Shown piece by piece: positions 6,044 through 39,114 of a stretch of DNA of 40,928 nucleotides. The DNA is from a virus. The position numbers were made by a program, and so were the translations under genes. Where the stretch lies: IMG/VR virus record IMGVR_UViG_3300018080_000302, positions 1 through 40,928 of that record. The stretch is one strand, 5' to 3'. The notes below the pieces were generated by a model. That model was not told where the DNA came from. It was given only the letters and a program-made list of their open reading frames with translations, and made no database searches. Each line of letters starts with the position of its first letter. Position 1 is the stretch's first letter.

Positions 6044-6214
6044 TTAAATAGCCTTTACTCCTAGAAAATCAAGATAACCCAATAATTTTATTCCCACAGA
6101 CCTTGATTTTGGTTTTTTAAAATACATTAATTGATGTGTTTTTTTGTTATAAATAGGTTTAAGTCCATTTCGTTTTAATCTGTTTATAATATCTGTTTTG
6201 TCATAGTTTTTCAT
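6044..6214 (-). CDS. Small basic hypothetical protein, 56 aa
   Basis: The ATG at 6214 is preferred to the ATG at 6241, because GGAG lies five bases upstream of it. This leaves a 14-base overlap with the glycosyltransferase stop. The product is basic, with an N-terminal helix (DKTDIINRLKRNGLKPIYNK) and a short basic C-terminal half. It could bind nucleic acid, but no motif is decisive. Confidence 0.5.
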   Translation of the reverse strand: MKNYDKTDIINRLKRNGLKPIYNKKTHQLMYFKKPKSRSVGIKLLGYLDFLGVKAI

Positions 6215-6980
6215 TTTTTCTCCATTCATTCCAATGTTCAATTAATTCTGAGGAATATTTAACCCATTCTGATAAATTATACTTTTGCATCATAATTCTT
6301 CTAATTTCTCCAAAACGATTTCTCATTTTATTATATTCATTTGGTCTATTTAAAACATAATTAGCTTCAATATTATCTGTGTAATAACATTTATATTCTT
6401 TTTCTTTCCATCTCCAAAATGAAGTTTCATGGTCTGCCATTTTTCTATCTTCATCGTATAATGAATTTATTAATAAATTAGTTTTAGCAAGGAAGAAATT
6501 TCTGCATAAATCAACAGGTTGAAATTTAATATTTTTATATTCTACTATCTTTCTACGTGGTATATCAAGATGAAAACAATCTTTTTTTTGCATATCACAT
6601 TCCCAAGCGATTCTATGCTTAATATTAAATCCACATAAAAATCTATCACTCTCTTTATTCAAAAATTCTTGTATTACAGTAAAGTCATATTTATCTTTGA
6701 ATATTATACTATCCGCACTCATCAGAATAAAAGGAATATTTAATTCATGAAATCGTTTAATGGCTATATTTCTAGCTTTTAAAGCTCCTATATCAAATTC
6801 TGTTTTTATAAATTCTCCTTTAATGTTTGTTGGAAGAATTATAGAATCTAAACAACTGGATTGATTTTGGTCAACAACGATAAAATAATAATCTTCATTC
6901 CAATACAAGGAAAGAGCGTTTAAACACTGCTGTAATAAATCATTTCTCAAAAAAGTTGTGATTAAAATTCCAATTTTCAT
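6201..6980 (-). CDS. GT-A fold glycosyltransferase (family 2-like)
   Basis: The N-terminus MKIGILITTFLRNDLLQQCL is the nucleotide-binding beta-alpha start of family 2 glycosyltransferases, and IGALKARNIAI is the usual following helix. The acidic metal site is SADS in FILMSADSIIF, a variant of DxD. The second half (about 150-259) would bind the acceptor and contains a charged DEDRKMADHETSFW region. The start overlaps the stop of the upstream bifunctional transferase by four bases. It belongs to a sugar cluster at 6.2-12.9 kb. Donor and acceptor cannot be read from the sequence. Confidence 0.75.
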   Translation of the reverse strand: MKIGILITTFLRNDLLQQCLNALSLYWNEDYYFIVVDQNQSSCLDSIILPTNIKGEFIKTEFDIGALKARNIAIKRFHELNIPFILMSADSIIFKDKYDFTVIQEFLNKESDRFLCGFNIKHRIAWECDMQKKDCFHLDIPRRKIVEYKNIKFQPVDLCRNFFLAKTNLLINSLYDEDRKMADHETSFWRWKEKEYKCYYTDNIEANYVLNRPNEYNKMRNRFGEIRRIMMQKYNLSEWVKYSSELIEHWNEWRKNEKL

Positions 6981-8917
6981 TTTATATCTGTATATCCTAA
7001 ATTTTTTAAATATTTAACTACTGGAAATGGAACACAAACAGTAGTATCTTTATATTTTATTTTTTTAGTAGAAGATAACATATCAAATAAAACTATATTA
7101 TCATTTATATATTTAGATGCTTTTGTTATATTATCAACCCCAATATGCATTGGGTAAGTAAATTTTTTATTTTTTATTGCTTCATAACATGTGTGATTTA
7201 ATAAACATACTTTAATATTATTTTTTTTCAAAATATATAGAATATCGTTTATTCTTTTATCTGCTATTCCTTTTATAGATGAAATAGCATTTATGTTTTG
7301 TGTATATTCATTTAATCTTTTTTTATATCTAATTTTATTATATTCTTTATATGCGCCAAAATTTCTATTATGATATTGATGAAATAATATAAGATTTTTA
7401 TTTATTTCTAAATTTTTTATAGTCTGTAATCTTTTATAAAAATCAGAATCTCTACCGCCCCAACCTCTATATTCTTCATCAAATCCATTTAAAAACTCAT
7501 ATGCTTCTTTTTCGCACACAAGTATACCAGAATCAACAGTAGATTTAACATCTTCTTGATTAAAATTAAGCAAAGCTTCATTATACTTATGAATATTAGA
7601 TTTTAATCGTACATATGAACACAAAAAACACTTTTTATTTTTATTATAAAAATCAATTATCTGTTCTATAAAATTATTTGGCATAAGCATGTCGATATCC
7701 ATAAATGTAAATATATTTGACTGAATCATATACTTAAACGCATTGTTTTTTGCGACGGATGCATCAAAAGATTCTTTATATTCGTAATGATATTTAAATT
7801 GAGAAATAAATTCTTTTATTTTATTAATATTAGATTCTTTTCCGACTTCTGATACACATACATTAAACTGTTTATTTTTGGACAAAGATTCATATGAATA
7901 TCGAAATCTATCCCATGCATCATCTGATAAATTCCCAACGACATATACGACATCTATCGGTTTTCTAAATTTATCGATTGTTTTATTGATTATATTTAAT
8001 AAATCTTTACAACGCTGTAAATGAGTATGTTTTGTAGCAATATAACTCAGTCCTTTTTTGATAATTTTTTTCTGTAATTTCTTATCGTTTAAAATATTTT
8101 TTGCCTTTGATATTAAATCTGAAAAATCATTTTGATATGTGATATAGCAATCAGGAAATAAATCTTGAAATCCATTATAACAATCGTTAGTGAACATTAT
8201 TCCACCACTTGCCATAATTTCAAACGCTTTAGCACAATCGATATTAAAATTTGAAATTCCATTTAAATAAATAGTATATTCTTGTAATGTATTTATATAA
8301 TTTTGTTCAAACTGTAATCCTTTAAAATCTATTAAATTTTCTTTTTCTAATTTATCAGATGCTATTTTTCTATAATAATAACTTTTAGATTTTGAATTTC
8401 CAACAAAACATATTTTATTTTGTCTTTGAATATTCGATGGTTTAAAAATATTAGTATCAACAGAAAAAGGAAACCATATGTGTGTCAATTCAGGAAAATC
8501 CTCATTGCCACGAACAGCATTATTTTTATGTCTATGAAGAATAAGATTTATATTATTATTTTTTATCCAATTATCATTTCTATATTTATGATAATCTGGT
8601 TCAATTAATATTTTAAAACAATTAAAGGTATTAAAATCTTTTGGTAACCATGATTCTTTTTCATATGAAGTAAAAAATGTTCTGTTTTTTCCAGCGACAA
8701 TTAAAACATCAAAATTGTATAAATTATATAAATCTTTCATAGTTAAATTATTATCATATGACGTTAAACAAATTTCTGGATATATTTCGTGAACATTAAC
8801 CCCATAAAATTTAGCTTCTGTGTTTGGTAGCTGATTTAAATATTGATAAAAATCAGTGTTGCAAAAATGATTAAAGCTTTTAGCTTTTGTGTATCTGTAT
8901 AAAATTAATATTTTCAT
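6977..8917 (-). CDS. Bifunctional glycosyltransferase: CgeB-like GT-B domain plus GT-A domain, 646 aa
   Basis: Residues 1-310 look like a GT-B transferase of the CgeB/YkvP type, with ICFVGNSKSKSYYYRK and a donor-site segment IDCAKAFEIMASGGIMFTND. Residues about 318-555 form a second, GT-A domain starting PIDVVYVVGNLSDD. It has the metal motif DIDML (FTFMDIDMLMPNN) and the GWGGRDSDFYKRL motif typical of galactosyl- and GalNAc-transferase C-terminal lobes. A ~90-residue tail of unknown role follows. Both neighbours overlap it by four bases. Two domains in one chain suggest two successive sugar additions to one acceptor, which is inference. Confidence 0.8.
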   Translation of the reverse strand: MKILILYRYTKAKSFNHFCNTDFYQYLNQLPNTEAKFYGVNVHEIYPEICLTSYDNNLTMKDLYNLYNFDVLIVAGKNRTFFTSYEKESWLPKDFNTFNCFKILIEPDYHKYRNDNWIKNNNINLILHRHKNNAVRGNEDFPELTHIWFPFSVDTNIFKPSNIQRQNKICFVGNSKSKSYYYRKIASDKLEKENLIDFKGLQFEQNYINTLQEYTIYLNGISNFNIDCAKAFEIMASGGIMFTNDCYNGFQDLFPDCYITYQNDFSDLISKAKNILNDKKLQKKIIKKGLSYIATKHTHLQRCKDLLNIINKTIDKFRKPIDVVYVVGNLSDDAWDRFRYSYESLSKNKQFNVCVSEVGKESNINKIKEFISQFKYHYEYKESFDASVAKNNAFKYMIQSNIFTFMDIDMLMPNNFIEQIIDFYNKNKKCFLCSYVRLKSNIHKYNEALLNFNQEDVKSTVDSGILVCEKEAYEFLNGFDEEYRGWGGRDSDFYKRLQTIKNLEINKNLILFHQYHNRNFGAYKEYNKIRYKKRLNEYTQNINAISSIKGIADKRINDILYILKKNNIKVCLLNHTCYEAIKNKKFTYPMHIGVDNITKASKYINDNIVLFDMLSSTKKIKYKDTTVCVPFPVVKYLKNLGYTDIK

Positions 8918-9510
8918 TTTTTGTCCAATTTCTTTAAATAATTTGTTCTTTTAATAGATTCTCTTCTATTTATTTTATGATTTTTTTGCAACCACAGTGC
9001 TATTTTTTTATCAGAAGCAGATGGGAATTCTTTTATTTTAGCTTCGATAGAATGCCATTTTCCAAATAAACTTGTGTAAATTCTAGAAGTATCTCTTATT
9101 AACAATTCATCGATACCATATACATTTATATATTTATTTAAAACAGATATAGAACTTTTTGGGAAAAATGCACCCCAACCCATCATTGTTTGAGCAAATT
9201 TTTTATACTTTTTTAAAGCACCTGGTTTCATATTATTAACAATTCGTTCTTTTCCAGCTTTTTTAAATTCTATATATTTTTTAAATAGTTGTTCAATATT
9301 CAAAGGTATAGCATCGTCGTCAACTGTAAAAATTATATCATTTTTTGCTTGTAAAGCTCCTAAATATCTACCCATACCACACATATTAATTTTAGTATTA
9401 TCCCATACAATTATTTCATCTATTATATTTGGATATTTTTTTAAATGACTAATAATTTTTTCTAGCTCAATTAATCTTTTATATTTTAGTAATACAGCAG
9501 TTGCTTTCAT
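8914..9510 (-). CDS. Small GT-A glycosyltransferase-like protein, 198 aa
   Basis: The metal-binding DxD motif is VDDDAIP at about residues 63-69, after IIVWDNTK and a G-rich helix (MGRYLGALQAKNDIIF), as in GT2/GT64-type transferases. An MMGWGAFFPKS segment at about 109-119 resembles the acceptor loop of exostosin-type transferases. The chain is short for the fold (usually 230 or more residues). The C-terminal ~40 residues are basic, which may mean membrane-surface association. The start overlaps the previous stop by four bases, in the same operon as the other sugar genes. Confidence 0.7.
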   Translation of the reverse strand: MKATAVLLKYKRLIELEKIISHLKKYPNIIDEIIVWDNTKINMCGMGRYLGALQAKNDIIFTVDDDAIPLNIEQLFKKYIEFKKAGKERIVNNMKPGALKKYKKFAQTMMGWGAFFPKSSISVLNKYINVYGIDELLIRDTSRIYTSLFGKWHSIEAKIKEFPSASDKKIALWLQKNHKINRRESIKRTNYLKKLDKK

Positions 9511-10310
9511 ATTATTTTAATTTCCAATTCTAAAGGTTTTTTTACTATATTTAATATTTTAGTAGTAAGATTAATAAAATCTTCATAAGTTCCATTATTA
9601 TCATTTTGAATTATATTTAACATATTGGAAACACTTAACCCACCTTCTCTTAATCCAATCAATTCATTTTTGTACGATTTTAATTCATGCCAATTTTTAA
9701 AAATACCACCCACCGAAGGATATTTTGGAAAATTATTTCTATGTTGTTTTGCTTTTTCTATTTCTTTTTTATTTATTTTTTTATTTGGAAAACAAAATTT
9801 TGCGTTTGTTACAATATAATCTACATCTTGTAAAATAGAATATCTTCTGCTAAAATTTAATTCTCTTTTATAAAAAGGTATTAGTATTTTGTTTTTTAAT
9901 ACAGTTATTTCTTTTAAATAATACGAAATAGCATATTCTCCAGACCCACTGTTGCCAACAATAGCTCCACCTATTGTTCCTGGTATACCATATAATCCTT
10001 CTAAACCAGAATAGTTATTTTCAATTGAATGCTCAACTAATCGTTGTAATTTAAAATTAGAAGAAACTAGCACTTGAACTTCATCATTATCTTTTATAAA
10101 ATAAATCCAAGATGGCATTTTCTTTAAACTAATCAGTTTTGCTACTCTTGGTTTAAAAACAACATTTGTTCCATCAGCCACAATTGATGCATCAGAGCGT
10201 TTATTTTTTATATCTTCTAATTCATCGTAATTTTCTGGAAACCATATTTCATTGACAATACATGAAAAATTAAACGAATTTTTTAAGTTGTAGTTTTTAT
10301 AGTATTTCAT
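9507..10310 (-). CDS. MurB-like FAD-binding protein with catalytic Ser replaced by Gly
   Basis: The ATG at 10310 (AAGGAAAC upstream, ATGA overlap with the HNH stop) is chosen over the upstream ATG at 10373 and gives 267 residues. MurB hallmarks appear in order: VADGTNVVF (FAD phosphate loop), GLEGLYGIPGTIGGAIVGNSG (FAD site), RRYSIL (substrate Arg region) and a C-terminal LELEIKII carrying the catalytic Glu. The motif that normally reads PSCGSVFKNP, with the proton-donor Ser, is PSVGGIFKN here. It may be a MurB with altered chemistry or an FAD-binding relative. It lies inside the glycan cluster, so a role in making or binding a nucleotide sugar is plausible. Confidence 0.75.
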   Translation of the reverse strand: MKYYKNYNLKNSFNFSCIVNEIWFPENYDELEDIKNKRSDASIVADGTNVVFKPRVAKLISLKKMPSWIYFIKDNDEVQVLVSSNFKLQRLVEHSIENNYSGLEGLYGIPGTIGGAIVGNSGSGEYAISYYLKEITVLKNKILIPFYKRELNFSRRYSILQDVDYIVTNAKFCFPNKKINKKEIEKAKQHRNNFPKYPSVGGIFKNWHELKSYKNELIGLREGGLSVSNMLNIIQNDNNGTYEDFINLTTKILNIVKKPLELEIKII

Positions 10311-10975
10311 GTTTCCTTTTTTTCTAAATTCTCTTTTGCCCAAAGCGGTTGAAGATTTGTATAATGAAAGCATTTACGTTGTTCATCTTCTTTTGTTAAA
10401 TCGAATGATGCACAAGGACGAATGTGGTCTATATGCCATTCTTGCATACCTTTACCGTTGTGACCCGTGCCATAATTATCCCATGTCATATCTCGCTTAA
10501 ATTGATTTTGTAAATGATACATTAAATAATCAAGCTCACATCCAATTAAAAGCATTGTTCTTAATGATTTATTTTTATTCTTTAATAAACCTCTTATTCT
10601 ATTTCTTAAATTATGTGCAATTTTTGCGTTTGGATTTGATTTAAATCTTTTCTTTTGTTGTTTATTTATTTTTTCACGATTATTTTTTTGATATAATTTA
10701 GATTTTTTATTAAGTTTTTCTTTATTTTTATTAATATATTTTTGTTGTGATAGTCTTATTTTATTTCTATTTAATTTATAATAATCTCTCTGATATTGTA
10801 ATGTGTGACTTTTTCCATTTATATAATTAGGATGATTTTTAGGATTTTTAAATCTATTTTTTGAAGCACAACTACTGCACATTTGTTTGCCATAATGCCA
10901 AGTGCAATAACAAATTTTTTTATCACAAACGATACAATAATAATTTTTTATTAATTTTCTTTTATTAATTGGCAT
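10307..10975 (-). CDS. Free-standing HNH endonuclease, copy 1
   Basis: The C-terminal HNH domain is WHIDHIRPCASFDL ... CFHYTNLQPLWAKEN: His-Asp-His metal/catalytic residues, then the Asn of TNLQPLW. The N-terminus has paired cysteines (CIVC, CYC, CSSC) that suggest a zinc-binding module. A long Lys/Asn/Gln-rich helical linker (about 70-125) probably contacts DNA. The domain from LIGCELDYLMYHLQ onward is shared with the genes at 20685 and 30124. No clear ribosome site precedes the ATG at 10975, which lies inside the end of the pyruvyltransferase gene. This fits a mobile gene dropped seamlessly into an operon. Confidence 0.88.
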   Translation of the reverse strand: MPINKRKLIKNYYCIVCDKKICYCTWHYGKQMCSSCASKNRFKNPKNHPNYINGKSHTLQYQRDYYKLNRNKIRLSQQKYINKNKEKLNKKSKLYQKNNREKINKQQKKRFKSNPNAKIAHNLRNRIRGLLKNKNKSLRTMLLIGCELDYLMYHLQNQFKRDMTWDNYGTGHNGKGMQEWHIDHIRPCASFDLTKEDEQRKCFHYTNLQPLWAKENLEKKET

Positions 10976-12027
10976 ATTTTATCTATAAGAGGATTAAATT
11001 TAGTTTTTCTTTCTAAATCAATAACTTTTTTTATTTTATTTCTATATTCTGGTAAATTTCTGAGTAAATGTTCTGTTATATATTTTAATCTATAATAGTA
11101 ATCATCAAATATAGAAATCCCCAATTCTGGACAATTAAGTAATTTATAAAATTCAATACTCTTTTGGTCATAATATGTGTTAATTGCAGGTGTCCCTGAT
11201 GCCCAAGACATAATGCATGAATGCATCTTTGTGGCAATCGTGCATTGACATTGAGCATATGTTTTTAATATTAAATTTATATCATCTGTGTTTATCCATT
11301 TTAAAGAGGAAATGTATTTTTGTAAATCAATCACCAATGATTGTTCTAGTGCATCATGTGTTATAAAGATAATTTCATAACCTAATTTAATCAAATTATT
11401 ACATATTGTAGAATAGTAATAAAGATTTTTTGTACGATTTTTTTGTCCTTCTTCGCCGCCATCGAATCTTCCTAATAATGGAGAATGTTGAGCAATATTT
11501 ATAGCTACTCTTTTTTCTTTCGAAACATCAGGAATATCTAAAAAACATGCTGGGTCTAATTGAAGTTCATGATTATTTACACCTATATTTTTTAAAATAT
11601 CATAAGTTCTTTTGTCACGAACAGTTGATATTGTAGATAAATTATTAATTGCTTTAATGCTTTCTTTTGCTTTATCACTAAGTTCACCACCAAAAATATC
11701 ATTTTTTAGATTATTATTGCAACCCAGCCCAACTAACATTATAGGTATTTTTATTTTTGAAAATAATTCAGATTTGCAATTAAAATACCATCCAGACTGT
11801 GTGTTTGCATTTGAATATAACCCACTTCCAGCAATCATCAAACAAGAGCTGTCTTTATTTAATTGTTCAATTCTTTGTTCAGTTAATTCATCATATTTAA
11901 CATTAAAATATGAAAAAGGAATATTTATTTGTTTTTTAATAGCAGAAGTTATAGATTCTCTAATTGCAATATCTCCCCTATTGCCTGTCATAACTGAAAA
12001 GTAAAATATTGGTTTAAATAATTTCAT
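10951..12027 (-). CDS. Polysaccharide pyruvyl transferase family protein, 358 aa
   Basis: Motifs typical of the WcaK/CsaB family are present: GNRGDIAI near residue 16, AGSGLYSN, TVRDKRTYDILKNIG in the middle, and TKMHSCIMSWASGTPAI in the C-terminal half. Family members transfer pyruvate from phosphoenolpyruvate as a ketal onto sugars of capsule, exopolysaccharide or secondary cell-wall polymers; some relatives act as other transferases. No membrane segment is visible, so it should be cytoplasmic. It is next to a DUF115-like gene and upstream of the other sugar genes, suggesting one glycan pathway. Confidence 0.8.
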   Translation of the reverse strand: MKLFKPIFYFSVMTGNRGDIAIRESITSAIKKQINIPFSYFNVKYDELTEQRIEQLNKDSSCLMIAGSGLYSNANTQSGWYFNCKSELFSKIKIPIMLVGLGCNNNLKNDIFGGELSDKAKESIKAINNLSTISTVRDKRTYDILKNIGVNNHELQLDPACFLDIPDVSKEKRVAINIAQHSPLLGRFDGGEEGQKNRTKNLYYYSTICNNLIKLGYEIIFITHDALEQSLVIDLQKYISSLKWINTDDINLILKTYAQCQCTIATKMHSCIMSWASGTPAINTYYDQKSIEFYKLLNCPELGISIFDDYYYRLKYITEHLLRNLPEYRNKIKKVIDLERKTKFNPLIDKICQLIKEN

Positions 12028-12028
12028 T

Positions 12029-12136
12029 TTAATTATAATTCTTCTTTTTCATTATTTTATTGATTTTATAGTTTACATATATTGGAATAAAAATAAAACT
12101 TATAATTATAGCTATTATAAAAATAATTAATGACAT
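12029..12136 (-). CDS. 35-residue single-pass membrane peptide
   Basis: ATG at 12136 with AGGA seven bases upstream; it overlaps the end of the DUF115-like gene by ten bases and ends two bases before the pyruvyltransferase ATG. Residues 3-20 are a continuous hydrophobic helix rich in Ile and Phe, followed by a basic tail (KINKIMKKKNYN), giving an N-out, C-in topology. Function unknown. The tight fit between two genes and the ribosome site support it. Confidence 0.5.
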   Translation of the reverse strand: MSLIIFIIAIIISFIFIPIYVNYKINKIMKKKNYN

Positions 12137-12933
12137 AATTTATTCCTAATATAATTTCTTATTTTATTATGATTAATATTTTCAATATTTTTATTTAATT
12201 TATCATAAAATTGTTGATAGTTTATTTTTGGAAAAACATTAATTTTTGAAAATATTGATACATTATAAATTTTTATTCCGTTTTTTAATTCTTTTTTAAA
12301 TGGCTCAAACCATAAATTATTCAATTCTTCTATTTTATTATAATTCCCTGTTCTATAATTCCCTCGTTCATCTTTTCCAACACCATTGTATTTATTCGTT
12401 TCCCATGTATATTTGCCAATCTCTGTATCATCATAAAAGTGAGTGTGACCATTAATATCTGTTGCATCAAAACCTAATAAATATATTTCTTTGCAATCTA
12501 AAGCAATGGCTAAATTAATAGCTTTTATTCCTGTGAGTTGACTTGTGTACCATCCTTGAATCCAAGCTTCCTTTCCCCAATAATGAGGATGCATTCCTTC
12601 TTCTTTTTCTCCCCAAATTAATTTCTTTTTGGATTTTGCTTCTTTTAATAAAATAACATTTGAATCAGTTCTAATACCATCTTTTCTTTTATATTCGCCA
12701 TCATCTTTACCTAAAATCAACGGAATATTTTTTAAATCTTTTTTGTTTGCCCCATACCAATGATAATCAGAATACATTAAAATAGTAGAATTAAAAAATT
12801 TATAGGAATAATTAACTCCAATCGTAAATTCATCTTTAATTTTATTCCAAACTGGTAACGATTCAATTTTTGTGTTCCATAAATTTTGTCTAATACTTGA
12901 GCCACTTCCAATTATTATAGCTTTATTTATCAT
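12127..12933 (-). CDS. DUF115 / MptE-like sugar-cluster protein, ~268 aa
   Basis: The N-terminus KAIIIGSGSSI is a glycine-rich nucleotide-binding loop. GVNYSYKFF and MYSDYHWYG follow, and the IYLLGFDA motif sits near the middle (about residue 155), before GHTHFYDD. This order is seen in DUF115/MptE-like proteins and in phage genes near surface-glycan clusters, several of which are suspected glycosyltransferases. The ATG at 12933 is chosen; an in-frame TTG at 12945 has poorer spacing. Exact reaction unknown. Confidence 0.6.
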   Translation of the reverse strand: MINKAIIIGSGSSIRQNLWNTKIESLPVWNKIKDEFTIGVNYSYKFFNSTILMYSDYHWYGANKKDLKNIPLILGKDDGEYKRKDGIRTDSNVILLKEAKSKKKLIWGEKEEGMHPHYWGKEAWIQGWYTSQLTGIKAINLAIALDCKEIYLLGFDATDINGHTHFYDDTEIGKYTWETNKYNGVGKDERGNYRTGNYNKIEELNNLWFEPFKKELKNGIKIYNVSIFSKINVFPKINYQQFYDKLNKNIENINHNKIRNYIRNKLCH

Positions 12934-13231
12934 CTTGACTTTCAAAATCCTTATCTGTCAAATTTTCTAACTGTTTTGTGACATCTAAATTTATTTTTCG
13001 CCAATTAGCTAAAGCACTTTGTTTAGCTATTTCTAAATCTTCAACCAACATTGCTTCTACATAAGAGCGTTTTCTTGGTTTTTCATTTTTTTCAGCATAT
13101 GGGTAAACAACGTATGTTAAATGTTCTCCTTTACTATCACAAACAAGCATAACTGAATCAATAATTGATTTAATAACTTTATATTGGTCTACCACATAAA
13201 CGACATCATTAACTCCATATTTTGATTCCAT
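12923..13231 (-). CDS. Small beta-barrel-like hypothetical protein, paralogue of the gene at 38689
   Basis: AAGGAG precedes the ATG at 13231. The first 35 residues (NDVVYVVDQYKVIKSIIDSV) match NDVVFFVHGQKVIKGIIDEI in the 141-aa gene at 38689, and both continue with VVYPY or IIRPY about 20 residues later. The pattern looks like a small SH3/KOW-type barrel followed by a helix (EDLEIAKQSALANWR). No catalytic residues are seen. The two copies lie 26 kb apart at opposite ends of the - strand block. Confidence 0.65.
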   Translation of the reverse strand: MESKYGVNDVVYVVDQYKVIKSIIDSVMLVCDSKGEHLTYVVYPYAEKNEKPRKRSYVEAMLVEDLEIAKQSALANWRKINLDVTKQLENLTDKDFESQDDK

Positions 13232-20510: not shown

Positions 20511-20701
20511 TTTTTTCTTTTGGTTATTTTGCAATTTAATATATAATTATATTTTTCATTGCAAGGAAAAGTAATAACCAATTCTCCTTTCTTTTTAGCT
20601 TTACGAGCTTTTTTATATATAGAATCAACTAATTGCGAAGTAACACGAAATGATTTTTGTCCTTCTTTAGCTGATTTAAATGTTTTACATGCAAATGGCA
20701 T
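20507..20701 (-). CDS. Basic hypothetical protein, 64 aa
   Basis: Lys-rich (SFRVTSQLVDSIYKKARKAK, then KKGELVITFPCNEKYNYIL): a helix followed by beta strands. Two Cys (residues 5 and 47) and one late Cys do not form a clear metal motif. The GELVITF pattern recalls small DNA-binding or nuclease-fold phage proteins but is not enough for a call. Overlaps HNH copy 2 by 17 bases and is followed by the secreted protease (ATGA). Confidence 0.55.
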   Translation of the reverse strand: MPFACKTFKSAKEGQKSFRVTSQLVDSIYKKARKAKKKGELVITFPCNEKYNYILNCKITKRKK

Positions 20702-21341
20702 CTCTGTTTCCTTTTTTCAAATTATCTAATTTCCATAAAGGTTGTAAATTAGTATAATGAAAGCATTTTCTTTGTTCTTCAGGTTTACTTAAATCGAATG
20801 ATGCACATGGTTTAATATGGTCAATATGCCATTCTCCGTAATTATCCCAATTCATGTCTTTCTTAAACTGCTTCTGTATATGATACATGAGATAATCTAT
20901 CTCGCATCCAATTAACATCATTGTGGCAAACGATTGATAATTGTTTTTAATACTCTCATATATTCTATGTCTTAAATTGCCAGCTAATCTAAATCTAACA
21001 TCTGTTTTATTTCTATTATTCATATAATTTCTATGATATTCTTGTAATTGTTCTTTATTTTCTTGATAATGCTTTCTCTGTTTTTGTAAACGTTTCTTTT
21101 TATTTTTTTCTCTATATTGTTTTCGTGCTTTCCACGTTTTTAAATACCATTTTTTAACTCTTTTGATAATAGTATGTTTATTTTTCTTATAATAATTTTT
21201 CCAAATATGTCTATTCTTTTTTCTATGTCTTAGTTGACATGCTTTACATGAACAACATAATTCGTCTTTTTTATATCTATCTTTATTGAATTCGTTAACA
21301 GATTTTTCAATTTTACATTTCGTACAAACTTTAGTTTTCAT
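20685..21341 (-). CDS. Free-standing HNH endonuclease, copy 2
   Basis: Start at ATG 21341 (GGAG nine bases upstream) rather than the TTG at 21356. The N-terminus is one Cys4 zinc finger (CTKC ... CSCKAC). A long Lys/Arg/Tyr-rich helical spacer (about 40-110) follows, then the catalytic domain LIGCEIDYLMYHIQKQFKKD, WHIDHIKPCASFDL, CFHYTNLQPLWKL. That domain is closely related, at DNA level too, to the copies at 10307 and 30124. Starts and ends overlap neighbouring genes. Probable homing endonuclease. Confidence 0.9.
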   Translation of the reverse strand: MKTKVCTKCKIEKSVNEFNKDRYKKDELCCSCKACQLRHRKKNRHIWKNYYKKNKHTIIKRVKKWYLKTWKARKQYREKNKKKRLQKQRKHYQENKEQLQEYHRNYMNNRNKTDVRFRLAGNLRHRIYESIKNNYQSFATMMLIGCEIDYLMYHIQKQFKKDMNWDNYGEWHIDHIKPCASFDLSKPEEQRKCFHYTNLQPLWKLDNLKKGNRDAICM

Positions 21342-21570
21342 TGCTTTCTCCGACAATAATATCTTTTTTATTGCCCGTTGGTTGTTTATACACTTTTGTC
21401 TTTTTAGGCATATTTTTATACATCTTTCTTATAAATTGTCTTGTATCAAGTACAGCAAGTAATAAAGTTTTTAATGCATTTTCTAAAGCTTTTTCATCTT
21501 CATTTTTCATATCATCAATTGCTTTAAAAATTTCTTCATCACTTATTCTCTTATACTGTTCCATTTTCAT
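21331..21570 (-). CDS. Helical hypothetical protein, 79 aa
   Basis: An AGGAG site precedes two ATGs (21570 and 21564); spacing favours the second, so two residues at the N-terminus are uncertain. The chain is acidic and helical for ~45 residues (ISDEEIFKAIDDMKNEDEKA), then basic (KMYKNMPKKTKVYKQ). No family recognised. It lies between HNH copy 2 and the Mom-like gene. The 70 bases separating it from the latter hold no convincing gene. Confidence 0.55.
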   Translation of the reverse strand: MKMEQYKRISDEEIFKAIDDMKNEDEKALENALKTLLLAVLDTRQFIRKMYKNMPKKTKVYKQPTGNKKDIIVGESNEN

Positions 21571-21640: not shown

Positions 21641-22297
21641 TTAAATTTTTTCATATAATTGATTTCCGTTTTTATCTAATTTAACATTATGCTTTTCAAA
21701 ATAAGGTTTTATCATTTTTAATAATTGTTTTCGTTCTAATTTATCTTTATATATCAATTTAACATAACGATTTTTAGCGTATCGCTTTACTCTTTTCCAC
21801 CCCATTTCTTTTGCAGTTTTCATATCAATATTTTGTCCGTTTTGTCTTGGGTGTCTTAATCTTCCATCTTTGTCTAAATAAAACCAAGCATTTCCTGTGT
21901 GACCAACTCTATAAAAATTAGTTGCCTTATATATAATTCCATCATGTCCTTCAGTTGAATCTGCAAAACTAATCACCGCCTTAATATGCGGTTTATCTAT
22001 TTTTAGCAATTCAAAACATCTTGTAATAAAATAACTTTCTGTATTTTTTGGTGTAACATCCAATATGTGTAATCTGTGCAATTCTAAGACTTTATGTTTA
22101 TGCTCATCACCAAAAATAGATTTTCTAACTGCTTCTGAACAAGGACAAGCAAAGGCACAAACTCCTATAAGATTATTATTCTCAAATAAACCATAGCAGG
22201 GTGATGGGGCATTATGACACCCATGAGAATAATGATTCTTAATAATATATTCTTTCCCAGTTTTACAAGGTATTTTTTTAATAAGATAATTATTCAT
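21641..22297 (-). CDS. mom: Mom-like DNA adenine modification protein (GNAT-like)
   Basis: The motif order fits the phage Mom family: IIKNHYSHGCHNAP (YSG-like substrate region), YGLFENNNLIGVCAF, LELHRLHI.D, NTESYFITRCFELL, IKAVISFADSTEGHDGIIYKATNFYRVG. Mu Mom converts adenine in DNA to N6-methylcarbamoyladenine, protecting phage DNA from restriction. Length (218) and the VISFAD ... G..Y.A..F core match phage homologues; the ~70-residue basic C-terminus is extra and may bind DNA. A strong promoter lies about 50 bases upstream. Specificity is not readable from sequence. Confidence 0.78.
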   Translation of the reverse strand: MNNYLIKKIPCKTGKEYIIKNHYSHGCHNAPSPCYGLFENNNLIGVCAFACPCSEAVRKSIFGDEHKHKVLELHRLHILDVTPKNTESYFITRCFELLKIDKPHIKAVISFADSTEGHDGIIYKATNFYRVGHTGNAWFYLDKDGRLRHPRQNGQNIDMKTAKEMGWKRVKRYAKNRYVKLIYKDKLERKQLLKMIKPYFEKHNVKLDKNGNQLYEKI

Positions 22298-22345: not shown

Positions 22346-22375
22346 ATTATAACATATAAATCTACTGTTTGTCAA
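22346..22375 (-). promoter_or_regulatory. Strong sigma70-type promoter with extended -10
   Basis: On the - strand: TTGACA (22370-22375), 18-base spacer, TATAAT (22346-22351), with TGT just before the -10 (extended -10). Both hexamers are perfect. It lies in a 204-base gap upstream of the Mom-like gene, whose ATG is 49 bases downstream of the -10. It shares ATATGTTATA with the promoter at 28402. Confidence 0.85.
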
Positions 22376-22501
22376 GTACAAACTCAATTAAAGTGATAAT
22401 TTCGCATGTATCAAAATTTTCATAAGTGCTTTTCATTATTTGAGTTATAGAATTATAATCTCTTCCTTCAACATTATGTTCATTTTGTAAATCTAAATTC
22501 G

Positions 22502-22996
22502 TTAAATCGCAAAATCTTCACATTGTCTAAAAAAATCTCCACAAATTGTATTGATTCGCCTTCCATATTTTTGTGTTCCAAACCCTGCTAAATTATCATC
22601 TAATATCCAATGCCTTTTTGCCCCCAATCGAATAGCGTGTTCAAAAACCCAATTTCTTGCAGGAATACTTCCATGCCCTAAATTTTTAAAAGGCAACACT
22701 AATATTTTATCTTTTGAAATATATTTAGCATATTGTGTAAACTCTTGTGGCTCGATAACTATTTTATAATCAATATTTAATTTTTCTAATGCTTTGCTTG
22801 TTGGTCGTTTTTTATATCGACCTTTTGAAATAATATAAACTGGATATTTAGGAAACATAGACGTTTTTGTGTTTCTATTATATTCAACTACATCACTGAT
22901 ATCATAACTATTTCGAAGTTCTGTGTTACGTGTTGGTACATAAAACTTCGGCATATCAGTCCATTCTTTTTTCCATTGTAGATTATTTTTCTTCAT
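22502..22996 (-). CDS. TAGT-like glycosyltransferase, apparently truncated (164 aa)
   Basis: From about residue 48 the sequence follows the TET-associated glycosyltransferase pattern: YPVYIISKGR, DYKIVIEPQEFTQYAKYI, ILVLPFKNLGHGSIPARNW, FEHAIRLGAKRHWILDDN (DD metal site), ending at CEDFAI. In the family as I know it, CEDFA is followed by well over 100 further residues with more sugar- and acceptor-binding motifs; here a TAA follows at once. The 204 downstream bases do not continue it in any frame. TAGTs glycosylate 5-hydroxymethylated bases in phage DNA. This one is probably inactive or altered. The ATG at 22996 overlaps the polymerase stop. Confidence 0.7.
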   Translation of the reverse strand: MKKNNLQWKKEWTDMPKFYVPTRNTELRNSYDISDVVEYNRNTKTSMFPKYPVYIISKGRYKKRPTSKALEKLNIDYKIVIEPQEFTQYAKYISKDKILVLPFKNLGHGSIPARNWVFEHAIRLGAKRHWILDDNLAGFGTQKYGRRINTICGDFFRQCEDFAI

Positions 22997-25900
22997 ATTC
23001 AATAAAAGGATTAATTTCGTTATATAATTTAGTTAAGTCAAGTTCTTTAATAGTTAATTTATTGTCTATAGCCTCTTTAATTGTACAGTATTTCGTGCCT
23101 AAACCTGCTTTCCCGACACTTTTATTTTTTATTAATGAAATGATACCCTCTTTTTTATCAAAGTAACCCTTGCTTATCTGAGCCTGTATTTGACTCTCCT
23201 TTTTATAAGTATCAAAAGCTTTAACTTTATATTCTACAGCTAATAGTTTTAAAATTTCTTTATCTTTTAAATAACTGTCAATTATCGAATCAATATATTC
23301 TTTAGAAAATTTAGCTTTCTTTTGTTTAATAATTTCTTTTTCTAAAACTTCATTAAATATTTTAATACCTAATGGTGTAGCATTTTCTTTTTTGATTGGT
23401 AATCCTACAATTTTCACTTTTAACTCATTATCTTCTTCATAAATATATAGATAATTCTTTTTCTTCCCCTGTCTTTCTTTAATCCAACTTCTGCCTTTTT
23501 TAACAACTTTATTTGAAGCTGTTTCAATAATACATTTCTTTTTATCAATTACACGTTCAACATATCCATCAGAAACTTTTTTACTTAATTTTTTACGAAT
23601 ATCTTCTTCTAAAATTTCTTGTTCTGAAAATGGCCACATAACATAATGTAAATAATTTTCAATATCAATCGTAAAGGTATCTACTGGAAATGGAACGCTT
23701 TGTTTAATAGTATCAATAATTTGATTTAAACATTGAATGACATATTCTTTATTATTATACTCTTCATCTGTGGCTTTTAAAAATAAGCTGTCGGTATCGC
23801 CGGCCACAGTTTCAAACCCATATGCTTTCATCATATCTTCGGTTAATTTTTGAATTTGTTGTCCTAACCAACAACAATCCCATCCACAATTAGGAGTATG
23901 AACTTTTTCAAATATTGAACTTCTAACAACTCCATATAAACTATTTCCACTCCAATTATATTTATTATTTGAACCAGCAAGCATTGTATGATTATCTTCA
24001 ATTTCTAAGCAATATACTTTACCAGTGTAATTCATATTTGTTCTGTTAGCTTTTCTAAATGAATTACTCGAATTATTATAGATAATTCTCCAACAACCAT
24101 CATTTTTAATATTAAATGTATAATTTAATCGTAAACATATTTCAATAAAATCTTCTTTTAAACAATCATATTTTGTCGTATATAATCTACTTTTTTTTGT
24201 TCCATCACCATCTATTAATCCTTGAAAAACCATTTTGATATTTAAAACATCAAATAATTTTTTATTTTGAAACGACTTATATTCTTTTTTACCAAAATTT
24301 GCTAATAAAAAATCATAAAATGGTTTACCAGATACTTTAATACATTGACTACCAGCACTGTATTTTAATCCACATTTATTTAACGCATCTATTATTTTAT
24401 TATAGATAACAGGATTTGCTATTTTATTTTGAGATAAGTTAATATGGTATCCATTTCCTCTAATATTCCCATTTAAATAATGTTTTGTTGTGGATTGATA
24501 TAAAGAACCTTCTGCTAAATATATTCCAATTATATATGAGATTGCATTATTATCATAGAATATCGGTGTTTGATGACATTTTCTGACATTTTTATCGAGT
24601 AATGTAACCATTGTGTTTTTATTATTTAATATCAACGATTCTTTATCTTTAATATCCTCATAGTTATATATAAAATTTCTATTATTTTCATTATATTTTT
24701 TTGGAATATTTTGTAATTTATTATCATATAACCAAGTTCTTCCATGAATATTATTTAATTTCACTGAATATAAATAATCATTTTTATTTATATAATCTAA
24801 AATGTTTATAGTTTTAATATAATTTGTTTTTTTTATTTTATGAATCGGAATTTTATGTTGAGATTCAATGTTTTGTGATTCAATAAATTTTATGTCTTTT
24901 TTATTATTTTTATGCTGAACTAAAAAATTGTGATTTGGTGTTACTTTAAAATCAAAATAATTTCCTTTATAATGATGTAGAATACCATTATAATCATACT
25001 CAAATGTTTTAACAATTTTCTTTTTTTCAACTCTTAATGTTTTGGGGTTTAGACTATAAACTAATTCTCCTTCTACACAATCTTTAATTTTTTTGATTGA
25101 ATTATCTGCCATTACAATTTCTGTGTCATCAGAAAAACAATTACAAAAAATCTTTAAAGTGTATATCATTGGACTATTTTTATCTTTCTTTTTTAAGATA
25201 ATTCGTTCTTTTAATTTCTCTGAAATATATTTCGATAATGGATGCCAAGTAGAAGCGTCATAATAACCTCTAACTTTAAATACATCATTTCCATGCCAAA
25301 CTTTATCATAATTTTTAATGTAATCTTTATTAATTTCAGCAGGTAGATTAAACATAGTAAAAATATGAGGATAAAGAGAAGCAAAATCAACATACCAAAC
25401 TTTTTTTGTTTCTTCATATTTAGGTTTAATAACTCTTCCGCCCATTTCTTCTGTTTTAGATAATTTTTCAGAGTATGTTGGTTCTTCTCCGATAACATTA
25501 CACGCTGATTTATAAGTAAGAGAAGCAATTGAACTTCGTAACCATGAAAGGTCATACACAAATTTCTCGTCGAGCAATTGAGCAAAAGGAATCCAATAAT
25601 TCCAAAGTTTATCAAACATTTGCTTTGTTGCCATAACATCATTTGCTAAATATTTTTTGATGTCTGCAATTTCTTCTGATGTCCATTCATTTTGTTCAAA
25701 AATTTTATAATCAATATCGCCTTTTTGAAAATCCAACTTCATTGTTTCAGCCATACATTTCAATGAATTATTTTTAAATTTATAATTCATTAATGCTCCA
25801 CGATTTTTATACGCATAGCCTTTGCTATTTCGTGATGTAGATTTCCCTAAAATTTGCATACAATCAACTTGCAAATATCTTTTATTTTGTAATGTTAAAC

Positions 25901-26201
25901 CGTTATTGTTTAAAATAGGAAAATCAAATTCTTCACTATTGAATCCAACAATAACATTATGATTACGTAATAGTTCTGCTATTTTAAAAGATTCTGTACT
26001 ACCATTTAAATAATATTGTTGGTTGTTTTTATAACTATATGCACCAAACCATTTTACTTTTGCATTATTAATGTATGAATCTATATCTGCACGAATACTA
26101 ATAGCTTGTCCATTACTATAATGAGCAGATGTTTCAATATCAACGACTAATGCTGATTTTTTAATATTGTTTAAATTGTTTTGTATATCTAAATTAAGCA
26201 T
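22983..26201 (-). CDS. Family B DNA polymerase interrupted by an intein
   Basis: The 1072-residue precursor has a 3'-5' exonuclease domain (ExoI VVDIETS at 19-25, ExoII IVGFNSEEFDFP at 84-95, ExoIII YLANDVMAT at 184-192). Polymerase motif A is DFASLYPHI (272-280), motif B is KIFCN/SLYG split by the intein, and motif C is AGDTDSLF. Residues 355-753 are the intein; the mature enzyme would be about 673 residues. Its ATG overlaps the ligase stop (TAATG). It is the likely replicative polymerase, co-expressed with the ligase and exonuclease genes upstream. Confidence 0.95.
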   Translation of the reverse strand: MLNLDIQNNLNNIKKSALVVDIETSAHYSNGQAISIRADIDSYINNAKVKWFGAYSYKNNQQYYLNGSTESFKIAELLRNHNVIVGFNSEEFDFPILNNNGLTLQNKRYLQVDCMQILGKSTSRNSKGYAYKNRGALMNYKFKNNSLKCMAETMKLDFQKGDIDYKIFEQNEWTSEEIADIKKYLANDVMATKQMFDKLWNYWIPFAQLLDEKFVYDLSWLRSSIASLTYKSACNVIGEEPTYSEKLSKTEEMGGRVIKPKYEETKKVWYVDFASLYPHIFTMFNLPAEINKDYIKNYDKVWHGNDVFKVRGYYDASTWHPLSKYISEKLKERIILKKKDKNSPMIYTLKIFCNCFSDDTEIVMADNSIKKIKDCVEGELVYSLNPKTLRVEKKKIVKTFEYDYNGILHHYKGNYFDFKVTPNHNFLVQHKNNKKDIKFIESQNIESQHKIPIHKIKKTNYIKTINILDYINKNDYLYSVKLNNIHGRTWLYDNKLQNIPKKYNENNRNFIYNYEDIKDKESLILNNKNTMVTLLDKNVRKCHQTPIFYDNNAISYIIGIYLAEGSLYQSTTKHYLNGNIRGNGYHINLSQNKIANPVIYNKIIDALNKCGLKYSAGSQCIKVSGKPFYDFLLANFGKKEYKSFQNKKLFDVLNIKMVFQGLIDGDGTKKSRLYTTKYDCLKEDFIEICLRLNYTFNIKNDGCWRIIYNNSSNSFRKANRTNMNYTGKVYCLEIEDNHTMLAGSNNKYNWSGNSLYGVVRSSIFEKVHTPNCGWDCCWLGQQIQKLTEDMMKAYGFETVAGDTDSLFLKATDEEYNNKEYVIQCLNQIIDTIKQSVPFPVDTFTIDIENYLHYVMWPFSEQEILEEDIRKKLSKKVSDGYVERVIDKKKCIIETASNKVVKKGRSWIKERQGKKKNYLYIYEEDNELKVKIVGLPIKKENATPLGIKIFNEVLEKEIIKQKKAKFSKEYIDSIIDSYLKDKEILKLLAVEYKVKAFDTYKKESQIQAQISKGYFDKKEGIISLIKNKSVGKAGLGTKYCTIKEAIDNKLTIKELDLTKLYNEINPFIEYEEK
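23943..25139 (-). mobile_element. LAGLIDADG intein in DNA polymerase motif B, 399 aa
   Basis: Starts at Cys355 (CFSDDTEIVMADNSIKKI, block A) and ends ...NKYNWSGN before Ser+1 of SLYG. The TPNHNFLVQ block B is intact. Two LAGLIDADG motifs (IIGIYLAEGS and FQGLIDGDGT) mark a homing endonuclease. The penultimate residue is Gly, not the usual His, which may need a modified C-terminal cleavage step. It splits the catalytic KxxxNSLYG motif exactly between Asn and Ser. Confidence 0.93.
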
Positions 26202-28953: not shown

Positions 28954-30134
28954 TCTTTTACCTTCTTTGGTCTTCCACGTTTCTTTTTAGATTTTTTTTC
29001 TGTTCCATTTTCACGCATACCAGTTCCTTCAAAAACTTTATCATATTCTGGTGCAATTATATTTTCATCAGGTTTTTCTGGTTCAGTCGGTTTTGTTTCA
29101 CCAGTTCCGCCTTGAGGTGGTATAATTTTTCCAGTATTACCTTTGTTATCCGTCAATCCTTTTTCTTTTAAATATTCTTTTATTTGTTTTCTTTGTTCTT
29201 CTGTTGCATCCGAATCAATTGTAATTGGAATATCATCAGTTGATTCAATCGAATCAACAAATCCTTTTTTATAAACAAAAGGCATATTGATTTCTGAGCC
29301 TTCTTTTTTAGACTGTGAAGATTTTGTTTTTTCTAATTTAATAACACTATTAAATCCCACAGGTTCTTTTTTGGTAGAATATCTTATTTTTCCTTCAGGG
29401 TCAATAAAATATTCTTTAAATTTTTCTACTGGAGCATCTGATTTTTGTCCTCTTCTCATAAATATACTTTGATATGCCCAGTGTTTTAAGCCAAGCCCAC
29501 CTGATAATTCGGCTTTTACAAAAAATGAACCCAAATTCATACGAACTTGCCCGATTAAAATACAGGCAATTTTGGCTCTAAAAACATCTGGTGCCACTAC
29601 TCTAAAAAATTTAGATAATGTTCTAGCTAATTCTGCCATTTCTCTTGAAGCAAGTTCACGTTCTTTACCCTTATTTTCTTGTTCTCCTTTGGGAGACATG
29701 GCCTGAATAGAATCAAGAACAATTAAATCAACAACTTTATCCTTAGAAAAAGCTCTAATAATTTCCAGAGCATCTTCGGCCGTTTGACATTTCGACACAA
29801 GAACTAATTCCCCCAAATTAATCCCAAAATCCTTTGCTCGAACTGCATCGAAACTTCTTTCCATATCAATATAACATGCTATTTTTCCTTCTTTTTGACA
29901 ATTAGCAACTGTTTGCAATGCCAGCGTGGATTTGCCGACACTTTCTCCGCCCCACAGAATTACGAAATTTCCTCGTTTAAATCCTTTTCCAATAAAATTA
30001 TCAAATTGTTCGATTCCGCTCGAAATAACAGATTCTTCTTCTAAATTCTTCGCAAAATCAGTAAAAGAATCTTTAAAATTTTTATTTAATTTTTTCATTG
30101 ATTCTATTAATTTTTTTCTTCGTTCATTTTCCAT
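28950..30134 (-). CDS. RecA/UvsX-like recombinase with AT-hook tail
   Basis: The ATG at 30134 (GAGG upstream) is preferred over the ATG at 30155; it overlaps the HNH stop by 11 bases. Walker A GGESVGKST is at residues 62-70, Walker B DLIVLDS at about 136-142, and the DNA-binding loop L2 region carries ELSGGLGLKHW. The core (about 40-270) fits a RecA-family ATPase that forms filaments on ssDNA. Beyond it are an acidic/proline-rich linker and a C-terminal KKKRGRPKKVKE, an AT-hook core. The HNH gene directly upstream may have used this recombinase locus as its target. Confidence 0.88.
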   Translation of the reverse strand: MENERRKKLIESMKKLNKNFKDSFTDFAKNLEEESVISSGIEQFDNFIGKGFKRGNFVILWGGESVGKSTLALQTVANCQKEGKIACYIDMERSFDAVRAKDFGINLGELVLVSKCQTAEDALEIIRAFSKDKVVDLIVLDSIQAMSPKGEQENKGKERELASREMAELARTLSKFFRVVAPDVFRAKIACILIGQVRMNLGSFFVKAELSGGLGLKHWAYQSIFMRRGQKSDAPVEKFKEYFIDPEGKIRYSTKKEPVGFNSVIKLEKTKSSQSKKEGSEINMPFVYKKGFVDSIESTDDIPITIDSDATEEQRKQIKEYLKEKGLTDNKGNTGKIIPPQGGTGETKPTEPEKPDENIIAPEYDKVFEGTGMRENGTEKKSKKKRGRPKKVKE

Positions 30135-30900
30135 AATTAAAGACCTCACTGTCATTTTTTTGTTGATTGATTTTAGCCCATAGAGGCTGTAAGTTAGTGT
30201 AATGAAAGCATTTACGCTGTTCTGATTCTTTAGTTAAATCGAAACTTGCACATGGTTTAATATGGTCGATGTGCCATTTGCCGTAATTATCCCAATTCAT
30301 GTTCTTCTTAAACTGTTTTTGTAAATGATACATCAAATAATCAATCTCACATCCAATTAAAAACATTGTCGATAATGATTTGATATTATTTTTGATGGCT
30401 TGATACATTCTAGTTGCCAAGTTGCCTCGTATTTTAAATCGAAGATTTTTTTGTCTATTGCGTTTTTGACGAATAGCAATTTGCGTTTTATGATTTTGTC
30501 TGTATTCTTTGTGATATTTAGTTCGTTGAGTAAGATGGTCTCGATAATATTTTCTGTTATAATTTGTATAATATTCTTTGTGTTTTTCATAATATTTTCG
30601 AGAGGTTTGTAATTCTCTTGTTAAATTTTTTAAATAAAATAATTTTTTACATTCTTTACAATGCGAAGAATATTTATTTTTACAAACATAAAAATTATGC
30701 AATTTCTTAATTTCTTTGCAATTAGAACAAATCTTCTTGTTTTGCTGAAATAATTTTGCTCGTCGAATTGTTTTTTCGCTTAAACTCTGACGACATTCTT
30801 TGCACCAATCAGCTAATCCATCCTTGCGACATTTATGTTTATGAAAATTTTTTCTATTCAAAAATCGTTTGCATTTTAAACAAATTTTCCTGTTTTTCAC
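30124..30900 (-). CDS. Free-standing HNH endonuclease, copy 3, with two zinc fingers
   Basis: Begins with GTG at 30900 in a GTGA overlap with the upstream gene. Two Cys4 zinc fingers (CLKC ... CKECR and CSNC ... CKECK) precede a long basic Tyr/Lys spacer (about 95-155). The shared catalytic domain follows: LIGCEIDYLMYHLQKQFKKN, WHIDHIKPCASFDL, CFHYTNLQPLWAK. The last ~200 bases of DNA are strikingly similar to copy 2. It has one more zinc finger than copy 2, so the DNA-recognition part has been remodelled while the nuclease domain was kept. Confidence 0.9.
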   Translation of the reverse strand: MKNRKICLKCKRFLNRKNFHKHKCRKDGLADWCKECRQSLSEKTIRRAKLFQQNKKICSNCKEIKKLHNFYVCKNKYSSHCKECKKLFYLKNLTRELQTSRKYYEKHKEYYTNYNRKYYRDHLTQRTKYHKEYRQNHKTQIAIRQKRNRQKNLRFKIRGNLATRMYQAIKNNIKSLSTMFLIGCEIDYLMYHLQKQFKKNMNWDNYGKWHIDHIKPCASFDLTKESEQRKCFHYTNLQPLWAKINQQKNDSEVFNYGK

Positions 30901-36488: not shown

Positions 36489-36647
36489 TCATCTTATCTC
36501 CAATGTTTCTACTTGTTCAAAATCAAATACTTCTTTTAAAGTTTCAGCTATGAGTTCGCCCTTATTAATTCCATCATATTGCATATCACAATTAACCTGT
36601 TCTTTAATTTCTTTCTGATTTGCTTTATCTATAAGAATTATTTTCAT
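36489..36647 (-). CDS. Small acidic hypothetical protein, 52 aa
   Basis: GAGGAG six bases upstream of the ATG at 36647, which overlaps the kinase stop (ATGA). The chain is alpha/beta and acidic (KIILIDKANQKEIKEQVN, then ELIAETLKEVFDFEQVETLE). No family recognised. It fills a 210-base gap between the kinase and phosphoesterase genes. A 15-codon frame with ATG at 36492 follows and overlaps its stop. Confidence 0.65.
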   Translation of the reverse strand: MKIILIDKANQKEIKEQVNCDMQYDGINKGELIAETLKEVFDFEQVETLEIR

Positions 36648-37267
36648 TTTTTCTCCTCAAATGTTAAAATTAAATCAGCGTATCGTTGTAATTGATAAAC
36701 AATATTATATTCACGTTGAACTATTTGTTTTCTAAAATTATCATTTTCATTTTCTTTAGCTCGTTTTTTTCTAAATTCTAAAGTGTCTTTTGGATTGCCT
36801 TCTAAATAAATAGCAATATCTCCATAGTTATCTTTTTTTAAATATCCTGAAAATAGTCCTTCAATAATTAAATAATCCACATCTTCTGTGTCTAAAGTAA
36901 TATGTTCTACTAAATCAGCATATTTATGCACTCTATTAAAACGAATGGGTTTTTTATTGGTGAAATCATCACATATTCTTTTTAATTCTTCCCAATCAAT
37001 TTCTCCTGTTCCAACAGAATCAATTCCTAATTTTTTTCGATTTAAATTTCTAAGAGAGGGCAAAGTGTGATAAAAATCATCTAAAGATAAAACAATGCTT
37101 TGTTTATTTTTACGAAATAAAATTTCTTGTAAACAATCTGCTGTCTCAGATTTTTGAGTGCCTGAGCCACCATATATTAAAATTATTTTTTCATCTTTTA
37201 AATTGTTTACTATTTGTTTCGCATTATATACAGATTTATTTGTAATTAGTAATCTATCGCCAATCAA
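36644..37267 (-). CDS. Uridine-kinase-like P-loop kinase
   Basis: Start is TTG at 37267 in a TTGA overlap, with GGAG seven bases upstream. Walker A is GGSGTQKS (33-40); then IVLSLDDFYHT and GTGEIDWEELK, as in uridine kinase/phosphoribulokinase-type enzymes, the Walker B-like strand YLIIEGLFSGY, and a lid helix RKKRAKENE. The 207-residue length fits. Substrate may be uridine/cytidine or another small alcohol or nucleoside; with the Mom-like and TAGT-like genes a modified-nucleoside role is possible but not shown. Confidence 0.78.
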   Translation of the reverse strand: MIGDRLLITNKSVYNAKQIVNNLKDEKIILIYGGSGTQKSETADCLQEILFRKNKQSIVLSLDDFYHTLPSLRNLNRKKLGIDSVGTGEIDWEELKRICDDFTNKKPIRFNRVHKYADLVEHITLDTEDVDYLIIEGLFSGYLKKDNYGDIAIYLEGNPKDTLEFRKKRAKENENDNFRKQIVQREYNIVYQLQRYADLILTFEEKK

Positions 37268-38696: not shown

Positions 38697-39114
38697 TATC
38701 TTTCTCCTTTAATTGATTTTGATATTCTTTTTCTAATTTATTATAATTTTCTTCTGTAATGCGTTCAACAAATTCAATCGCTTCTTTTAAATATTTATCA
38801 AATTCTTTCAAATTTTTCTTATACTTACGTTTCATTTCTCGTTTAGCATCTTCGAAATTTTTTGTAAGATTTTCTTTAGTATATGTTCGTCGTAAATCTT
38901 CAATCACAACTCGTTTTGCTTTTTCAATATCGTCATAAATTTTATTAGCGTCAATAGTAACATAATCACTAATACCATATGGTCTAATAATATATTTAAT
39001 AATTTTTTTGAGTTGTGTGTGATGAACAATTATTTCATCGATAATTCCTTTAATAACTTTTTGCCCATGAACAAAAAACACGACATCATTCATTTGATAT
39101 TTTGTGTCCGTCAT
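38689..39114 (-). CDS. Barrel-plus-coil hypothetical protein, paralogue of the gene at 12923
   Basis: The N-terminal ~50 residues (NDVVFFVHGQKVIKGIIDEI ... IIRPYG) match the 102-aa gene at 12923. The C-terminal ~75 residues are a highly charged helix (TKNFEDAKREMKRKYKK, then EKEYQNQLKEKD) not seen in that copy. It overlaps the exonuclease gene before it by four bases. Role unknown; adding a coil to a shared small domain suggests different partners. Confidence 0.65.
   Translation of the reverse strand: MTDTKYQMNDVVFFVHGQKVIKGIIDEIIVHHTQLKKIIKYIIRPYGISDYVTIDANKIYDDIEKAKRVVIEDLRRTYTKENLTKNFEDAKREMKRKYKKNLKEFDKYLKEAIEFVERITEENYNKLEKEYQNQLKEKDNA

Follow-up and report, generated by a model that had tools for sequence, protein, structure and literature searches.

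The window, a viral DNA record of 40,928 bases, carries on its minus strand the 5' half of a TAGT-family DNA glycosyltransferase gene. This half-gene is a decayed member of a known family and lies beside an intact, independent Mom-like DNA modification gene. We consider it probable that the half-gene is the broken remnant of a GT-A glycosyltransferase gene, made by a deletion or another illegitimate recombination. It looks like ordinary gene decay rather than a new short enzyme. The features of the region, all on the minus strand, are listed below in the order of transcription.

22983..26201, minus: family-B-type DNA polymerase gene with an intein, upstream of TAGT
22502..22996, minus: truncated TAGT-family glycosyltransferase gene (half-TAGT), 164 aa; N-terminal half of the GT-A domain, including SKGR and HWILDDN
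22362..22508, minus: scar, likely the 3' end of an unassigned gene; 48 codons (DLTNLDLQNEHNVEGRDYNSITQIMKSTYENFDTCEIITLIEFVLDKQ) and TAG, in a frame other than that of TAGT
22346..22375, minus: sigma-70-type promoter of the Mom-like gene; 12/12 match to TTGACA-N18-TATAAT, with TG before the -10
21641..22297, minus: intact Mom-like DNA modification gene, 218 aa; PF25680, phrog_1384
20685..21356, minus: free-standing HNH/endonuclease VII-like gene, downstream of Mom; phrog_1035, E 3e-15

The TAGT gene ends in the middle of its domain

The TAGT family (PF20691, phrog_842) is that of the beta-glucosyl-HMC-alpha-glucosyltransferase of T-even-like phages. Its defining activity, sugar transfer to hydroxymethylated or already glycosylated DNA bases, would have been that of the intact gene. 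The reading frame opens with an ATG at 22996 and closes with a TAA at 22504-22502, and the protein ends in ...GDFFRQCEDFAI*. PF20691 matched it at E 1.1e-19 with 71.6 bits (cut-off 27.5) over positions 1-94 of the 205 in the model, stopping right after CEDFA, and phrog_842 matched over positions 1-102 of 270 at E 2.5e-18. On these profile scores, the homology to the TAGT family is far above chance. An earlier note had described a TAGT start conserved through CEDFA and followed by a stop, and the profile match and the stop codon bear this out.

The retained half is well preserved and has gene-like codon usage along the whole frame. The SKGR and HWxxDDN motifs are present. In an alignment with 36 relatives, half-TAGT kept all 29 invariant columns of the N-terminal half and 44 of the 48 columns conserved there at 90% or more, while 53 columns conserved at that level in the C-terminal half were lost. 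The loss is probably recent, as no drift is seen in the part that remains. Either the break is recent or the half is under selection, and the intact residues count against a remnant to the extent that they could also mean selection on half-TAGT.

The C-terminal half of the domain (NTRIYS, RWRGRYNEDTDLS and GGNT) is present neither in the reading frame nor in any of the six frames of the window. When the whole 40,928-base record was searched for the family, no second TAGT piece turned up, and the C-terminal halves of six TAGT relatives, used as queries, gave nothing significant in the window. Between the TAGT stop and the Mom start there are only 204 bases. A sequencing frameshift with the C-terminal half lying downstream was thus ruled out; because that half is not there, the sequence cannot be that of a complete TAGT gene with a simple sequencing indel. 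An interruption of the gene by a group I intron or another known RNA was also rejected, as the window has no Rfam match.

Relatives continue past the break point

Our sample of TAGT relatives contained 111 members: 80 viral ones, which are the best 80 of at least 572 matching relatives in an IMG/VR profile scan, and 31 in bacterial genome assemblies. The gene continues intact past the break point in 105 of them, for about 150 residues, just as the earlier note had said of family members at the position of the stop. Four of the others are cut by contig ends (three among the IMG/VR relatives, the best 80 of at least 572, and one among the 31 from bacterial assemblies) and two, L046 and L080, have stray stops. 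All 31 bacterial-assembly relatives continue past the break point, one of them into a contig end, and the IMG/VR relatives other than the cut or stop-bearing ones run on through NTRIYS and the RWRGRYNEDTDLS region. None of the 111 is an intact homologue as short as half-TAGT, so there is no short TAGT family in this sample. A search for homologues of the same short length with conserved ends had been proposed beforehand, and it returned no intact one.

The closest homologue of half-TAGT among the best 80 of at least 572 is L010, which is 59% identical over 149 aa and continues for another 137 residues past the break point. The nearest viral members are about 50-60% identical to half-TAGT; matches in cultured phages are 31-37% identical, with 31-35% for those of Aeromonas, Vibrio and Tenacibaculum phages. 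The six annotated cultured-phage TAGT proteins that we examined are 384-471 aa long. No close kin of TAGT was found in an IMG/VR single-protein scan, from which records very close to the window may have been withheld, and a strict TAGT DNA pattern gave no matches.

The cut passes through the GT-A fold

AlphaFold2 gave a full fold for L010 (49 sequences, pLDDT 84, pTM 0.80), and Foldseek matched this model at E 3e-6 to GT-A glycosyltransferases of solved structure, COLGALT1 among them. Independently, the TAGT of T6 has been placed in the GT-A superfamily (PMC13216743). Mapped on L010, the window protein ends within helix 160-169, ahead of the second half of the sheet. Missing relative to the L010 model are the strands at 175-182, 193-195, 202-206 and 233-244, the helices after these and the final strand pair. 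The model of half-TAGT reached a pLDDT of 78 and alone gave no PDB match at E <= 0.001. The full-length L010 model thus matches GT-A structures and half-TAGT does not form a complete GT-A fold; as modelled, the fold is cut in its middle.

The remaining protein would keep the presumed nucleotide-sugar/metal side (HWILDDN). It would be left without RWRGRYNEDTDLS...GGN, which is conserved, and without the second half of the beta-sheet, and for this reason it should not transfer sugar. The models therefore suggest a loss of activity.

A coding-like stretch, probably a deletion scar, follows the stop

At and after the TAGT stop, 144 bases (22508-22365) are open in a second frame, a feature that the earlier note had not mentioned. 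This scar has one internal ATG and no ATG, GTG or TTG able to start the whole stretch. Its codon-usage score was 10.3, compared with 11.2 +/- 5.1 (mean and standard deviation) for 48-codon segments taken from genes of this phage, and none of 90 open off-frame pieces scored as high. A homologue of the scar was found neither in Pfam, PHROGs, NCBIfam and the phage collection nor in all fetched loci and a viral pattern scan; across these databases and loci, a TAGT tail or a known gene was ruled out. The scar is best read as the 3' end of another gene, joined to the 5' half of TAGT by deletion. We infer that a deletion or other illegitimate recombination took the 3' half of TAGT and, with it, the 5' part of the gene next to it. 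What was left of the two genes would have been joined out of frame, which would have produced the immediate stop.

The Mom-like gene is intact and has its own promoter

Mom proteins make carbamoylmethyl-adenine in DNA, and this activity is predicted for the window protein. PF25680 matched it over positions 2-200 of 202 at E 5e-38, which is the full length of the domain, and phrog_1384 matched at E 1.5e-50. The residues invariant across the family are present, and the HHYSH, ELxRL and GHxGxIYxAxN motifs are conserved. The closest cultured Mom relative is that of Halogranum tailed virus 1, with 48% identity, and the IMG/VR single-protein scan found no close kin of Mom. To judge from its sequence, the protein presumably still modifies adenines in the phage DNA.

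The -35 of the Mom promoter overlaps the end of the scar. Only one other perfect (12/12) site exists in the window, and it lies inside a gene. Between genes, at 28431-28402, an 11/12 site shares the ATATGTTATA core with the Mom promoter, which supports real promoter use. The Mom-like gene has its own promoter and is independent of TAGT. The claim of an adjoining Mom-like gene with its own strong promoter is thereby confirmed. In this the gene differs from Mu mom, the namesake of the family, which according to the account in PMC4461284 needs the transactivator C.

The position of the Mom-like gene raises the possibility of a true replacement, a version of the remnant explanation in which an incoming Mom cassette cut off TAGT. 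The scar, the promoter and Mom would all be donor-derived, and the phage would have passed from sugar to adenine modification in one step. Such an event would fit the scar, the promoter and Mom lying directly after the break and the intact state of Mom with its own promoter, but we consider it unlikely. In none of the fetched Mom relatives does the scar sequence stand upstream of Mom, and the two genes are not generally found together. Mom was above the cut-off in one of 55 records with TAGT (Tenacibaculum phage PTm1) and TAGT in none of 45 records with Mom; since fragments are numerous among these records, both rates are lower bounds. A general TAGT-Mom linkage was thus not seen. A replacement also presupposes that TAGT once modified the DNA of this phage. 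This we can only infer, since its nearest kin, G001, has neither gene, TAGT and Mom are rarely together and no hydroxymethylase was found: the window and G001 gave no match to a thymidylate-synthase-type hydroxymethylase, and none to Tet/JBP in a search run without a positive control. TAGTs that stand alone and have no known substrate are common, at 288 of 753 phage genomes (PMC13216743).

The earlier note had proposed a lineage that lost one DNA modification and kept or gained another. The loss of the TAGT gene stands, given the 111 relatives without a short intact homologue, the halved GT-A fold and the out-of-frame coding scar. The exchange is unsupported beyond the adjacency of the two genes, which rarely co-occur and are both absent from the nearest kin.

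Genomic context and the origin of the junction

The end of the polymerase gene overlaps the start of TAGT by 14 bases and the TAGT ATG lies inside the overlap, so TAGT is probably co-transcribed with it. We used the polymerase to look for kin in IMG/VR, where a pattern search gave six stretches and a protein query four loci. The best kin was G001 (102 kb), which shares genes from both sides of the TAGT break. Common to both are a glycosyltransferase, SbcD/SbcC-like proteins, the polymerase, a ligase, an exonuclease, a RecA-like protein and a primase. TAGT and Mom are both absent from G001, where other small genes follow the polymerase. From this comparison, the window probably represents part of a larger genome, a point that the earlier note had not raised, and TAGT and Mom form an accessory stretch in it. 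An intact TAGT in related genomes had been suggested as a check, but no close relative with one at this locus was found, which counts against a remnant.

The junction at about 22505 could also be an assembly or sequencing artefact: the virus itself would have an intact TAGT, and two molecules would have been linked, or strain variants merged, in the contig. In favour of this are the metagenomic origin of the contig, the abruptness with which two coding sequences meet and the suspicious single stops in the relatives L046 and L080. However, a simple indel would leave the C-terminal half downstream, where it is absent, and the genes flanking the break on both sides occur in G001, which makes a gross chimera unlikely. 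We therefore regard an artefact as improbable.

Somewhat less probable still is a functional short protein, either one part of a split enzyme, with the C-terminal half encoded in genome sequence outside the contig, or a half-domain that has taken on another role, e.g. in nucleotide-sugar binding. The lack of decay in the retained half and the preserved start inside the polymerase gene end speak for such a protein, as does the 102-kb kin record, by which the window very probably covers just part of a genome. Against these points, no intact homologue among the 111 has this length, the window has no C-terminal half, the domain core is cut through and a start-less coding scar follows. The working short form that had been considered possible before is thus unlikely, yet the conserved residues of its retained half are intact. 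A split DNA glycosyltransferase of which half-TAGT is one working part, with the C-terminal half encoded outside the contig, and which would give the phage two DNA modifications together with Mom, is very improbable.

Relation to known systems

As a broken remnant, half-TAGT resembles its family in the N-terminal half, where all invariant residues are kept, and differs from it in the loss of the C-terminal half of the domain, where intact relatives have RWRGRYNEDTDLS and GGNT. T4 alpha-gt mutants escape Brig1 through point changes in alpha-GT, and phages with two DNA glucosyltransferases survive the loss of one under Brig1 (PMC13216743). The likeness is that a glycosyltransferase becomes dispensable when the phage has more than one modification enzyme; the difference is that T4 has point changes in alpha-GT, whereas here half of the TAGT gene is lost. 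By analogy with such escape mutants of other DNA glycosyltransferases, changing host defences probably made the loss of TAGT tolerable or advantageous, and a Brig1-type defence would be a plausible setting. If the remnant explanation is true, the window shows a phage in the course of losing a DNA-sugar enzyme, with an unrelated neighbouring DNA-modification gene still intact. An arms race with defences against modified bases, which these defences recognise, would be expected to bring about such turnover. It also means that a TAGT match in an annotation need not imply a working enzyme.

Other observations

Several TAGT relatives had unusual structures. L046:613-1392 has a single in-frame stop soon after EDFADRY, at most a few residues from the break point of the window's TAGT, and the rest of the gene follows. 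L080:3381-4160 likewise has one internal in-frame stop with the remainder of the gene present. In L078:4163-7813 (IMGVR_UViG_3300011441_000013) a complete TAGT domain (E 4e-33) stands in a 1217-aa open frame, fused to a family A DNA polymerase (PF00476, E 2e-22); this domain arrangement suggests that glycosylation may be coupled to replication. Complete TAGT domains with a C-terminal extension occur in L019:5614-7302 and L036:5569-7308. The L019 extension matched PF03167, the uracil-DNA glycosylase superfamily, at E 1e-4, a little below the curated cut-off, and by eye the L036 extension resembles it. L053:5308-6891 has an apparent ParB-like N-terminal domain in frame ahead of TAGT, also judged by eye.

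In the window, inteins were found in the DNA polymerase (22983-26201) and in the 5'-3' exonuclease gene (39111-40904); the polymerase insert (residues about 357-752) is absent from the kin polymerases. The window has three similar free-standing HNH/endonuclease VII-like genes (10307-10975, 20685-21356 and 30124-30900), and G001 has at least four more matches to them. A surface-sugar cluster at 6201-12945 encodes two proteins with glycosyltransferase matches, a MurB-like protein, a polysaccharide pyruvyl transferase and a sialyltransferase-like protein. G001 carries two relatives of these genes and, as judged by eye, a KdsA-like gene. At 36644-37267 the window encodes a uridine kinase/phosphoribulokinase-like protein (PF00485, E 4e-7), which from this match may possibly act in nucleotide metabolism or base hypermodification.
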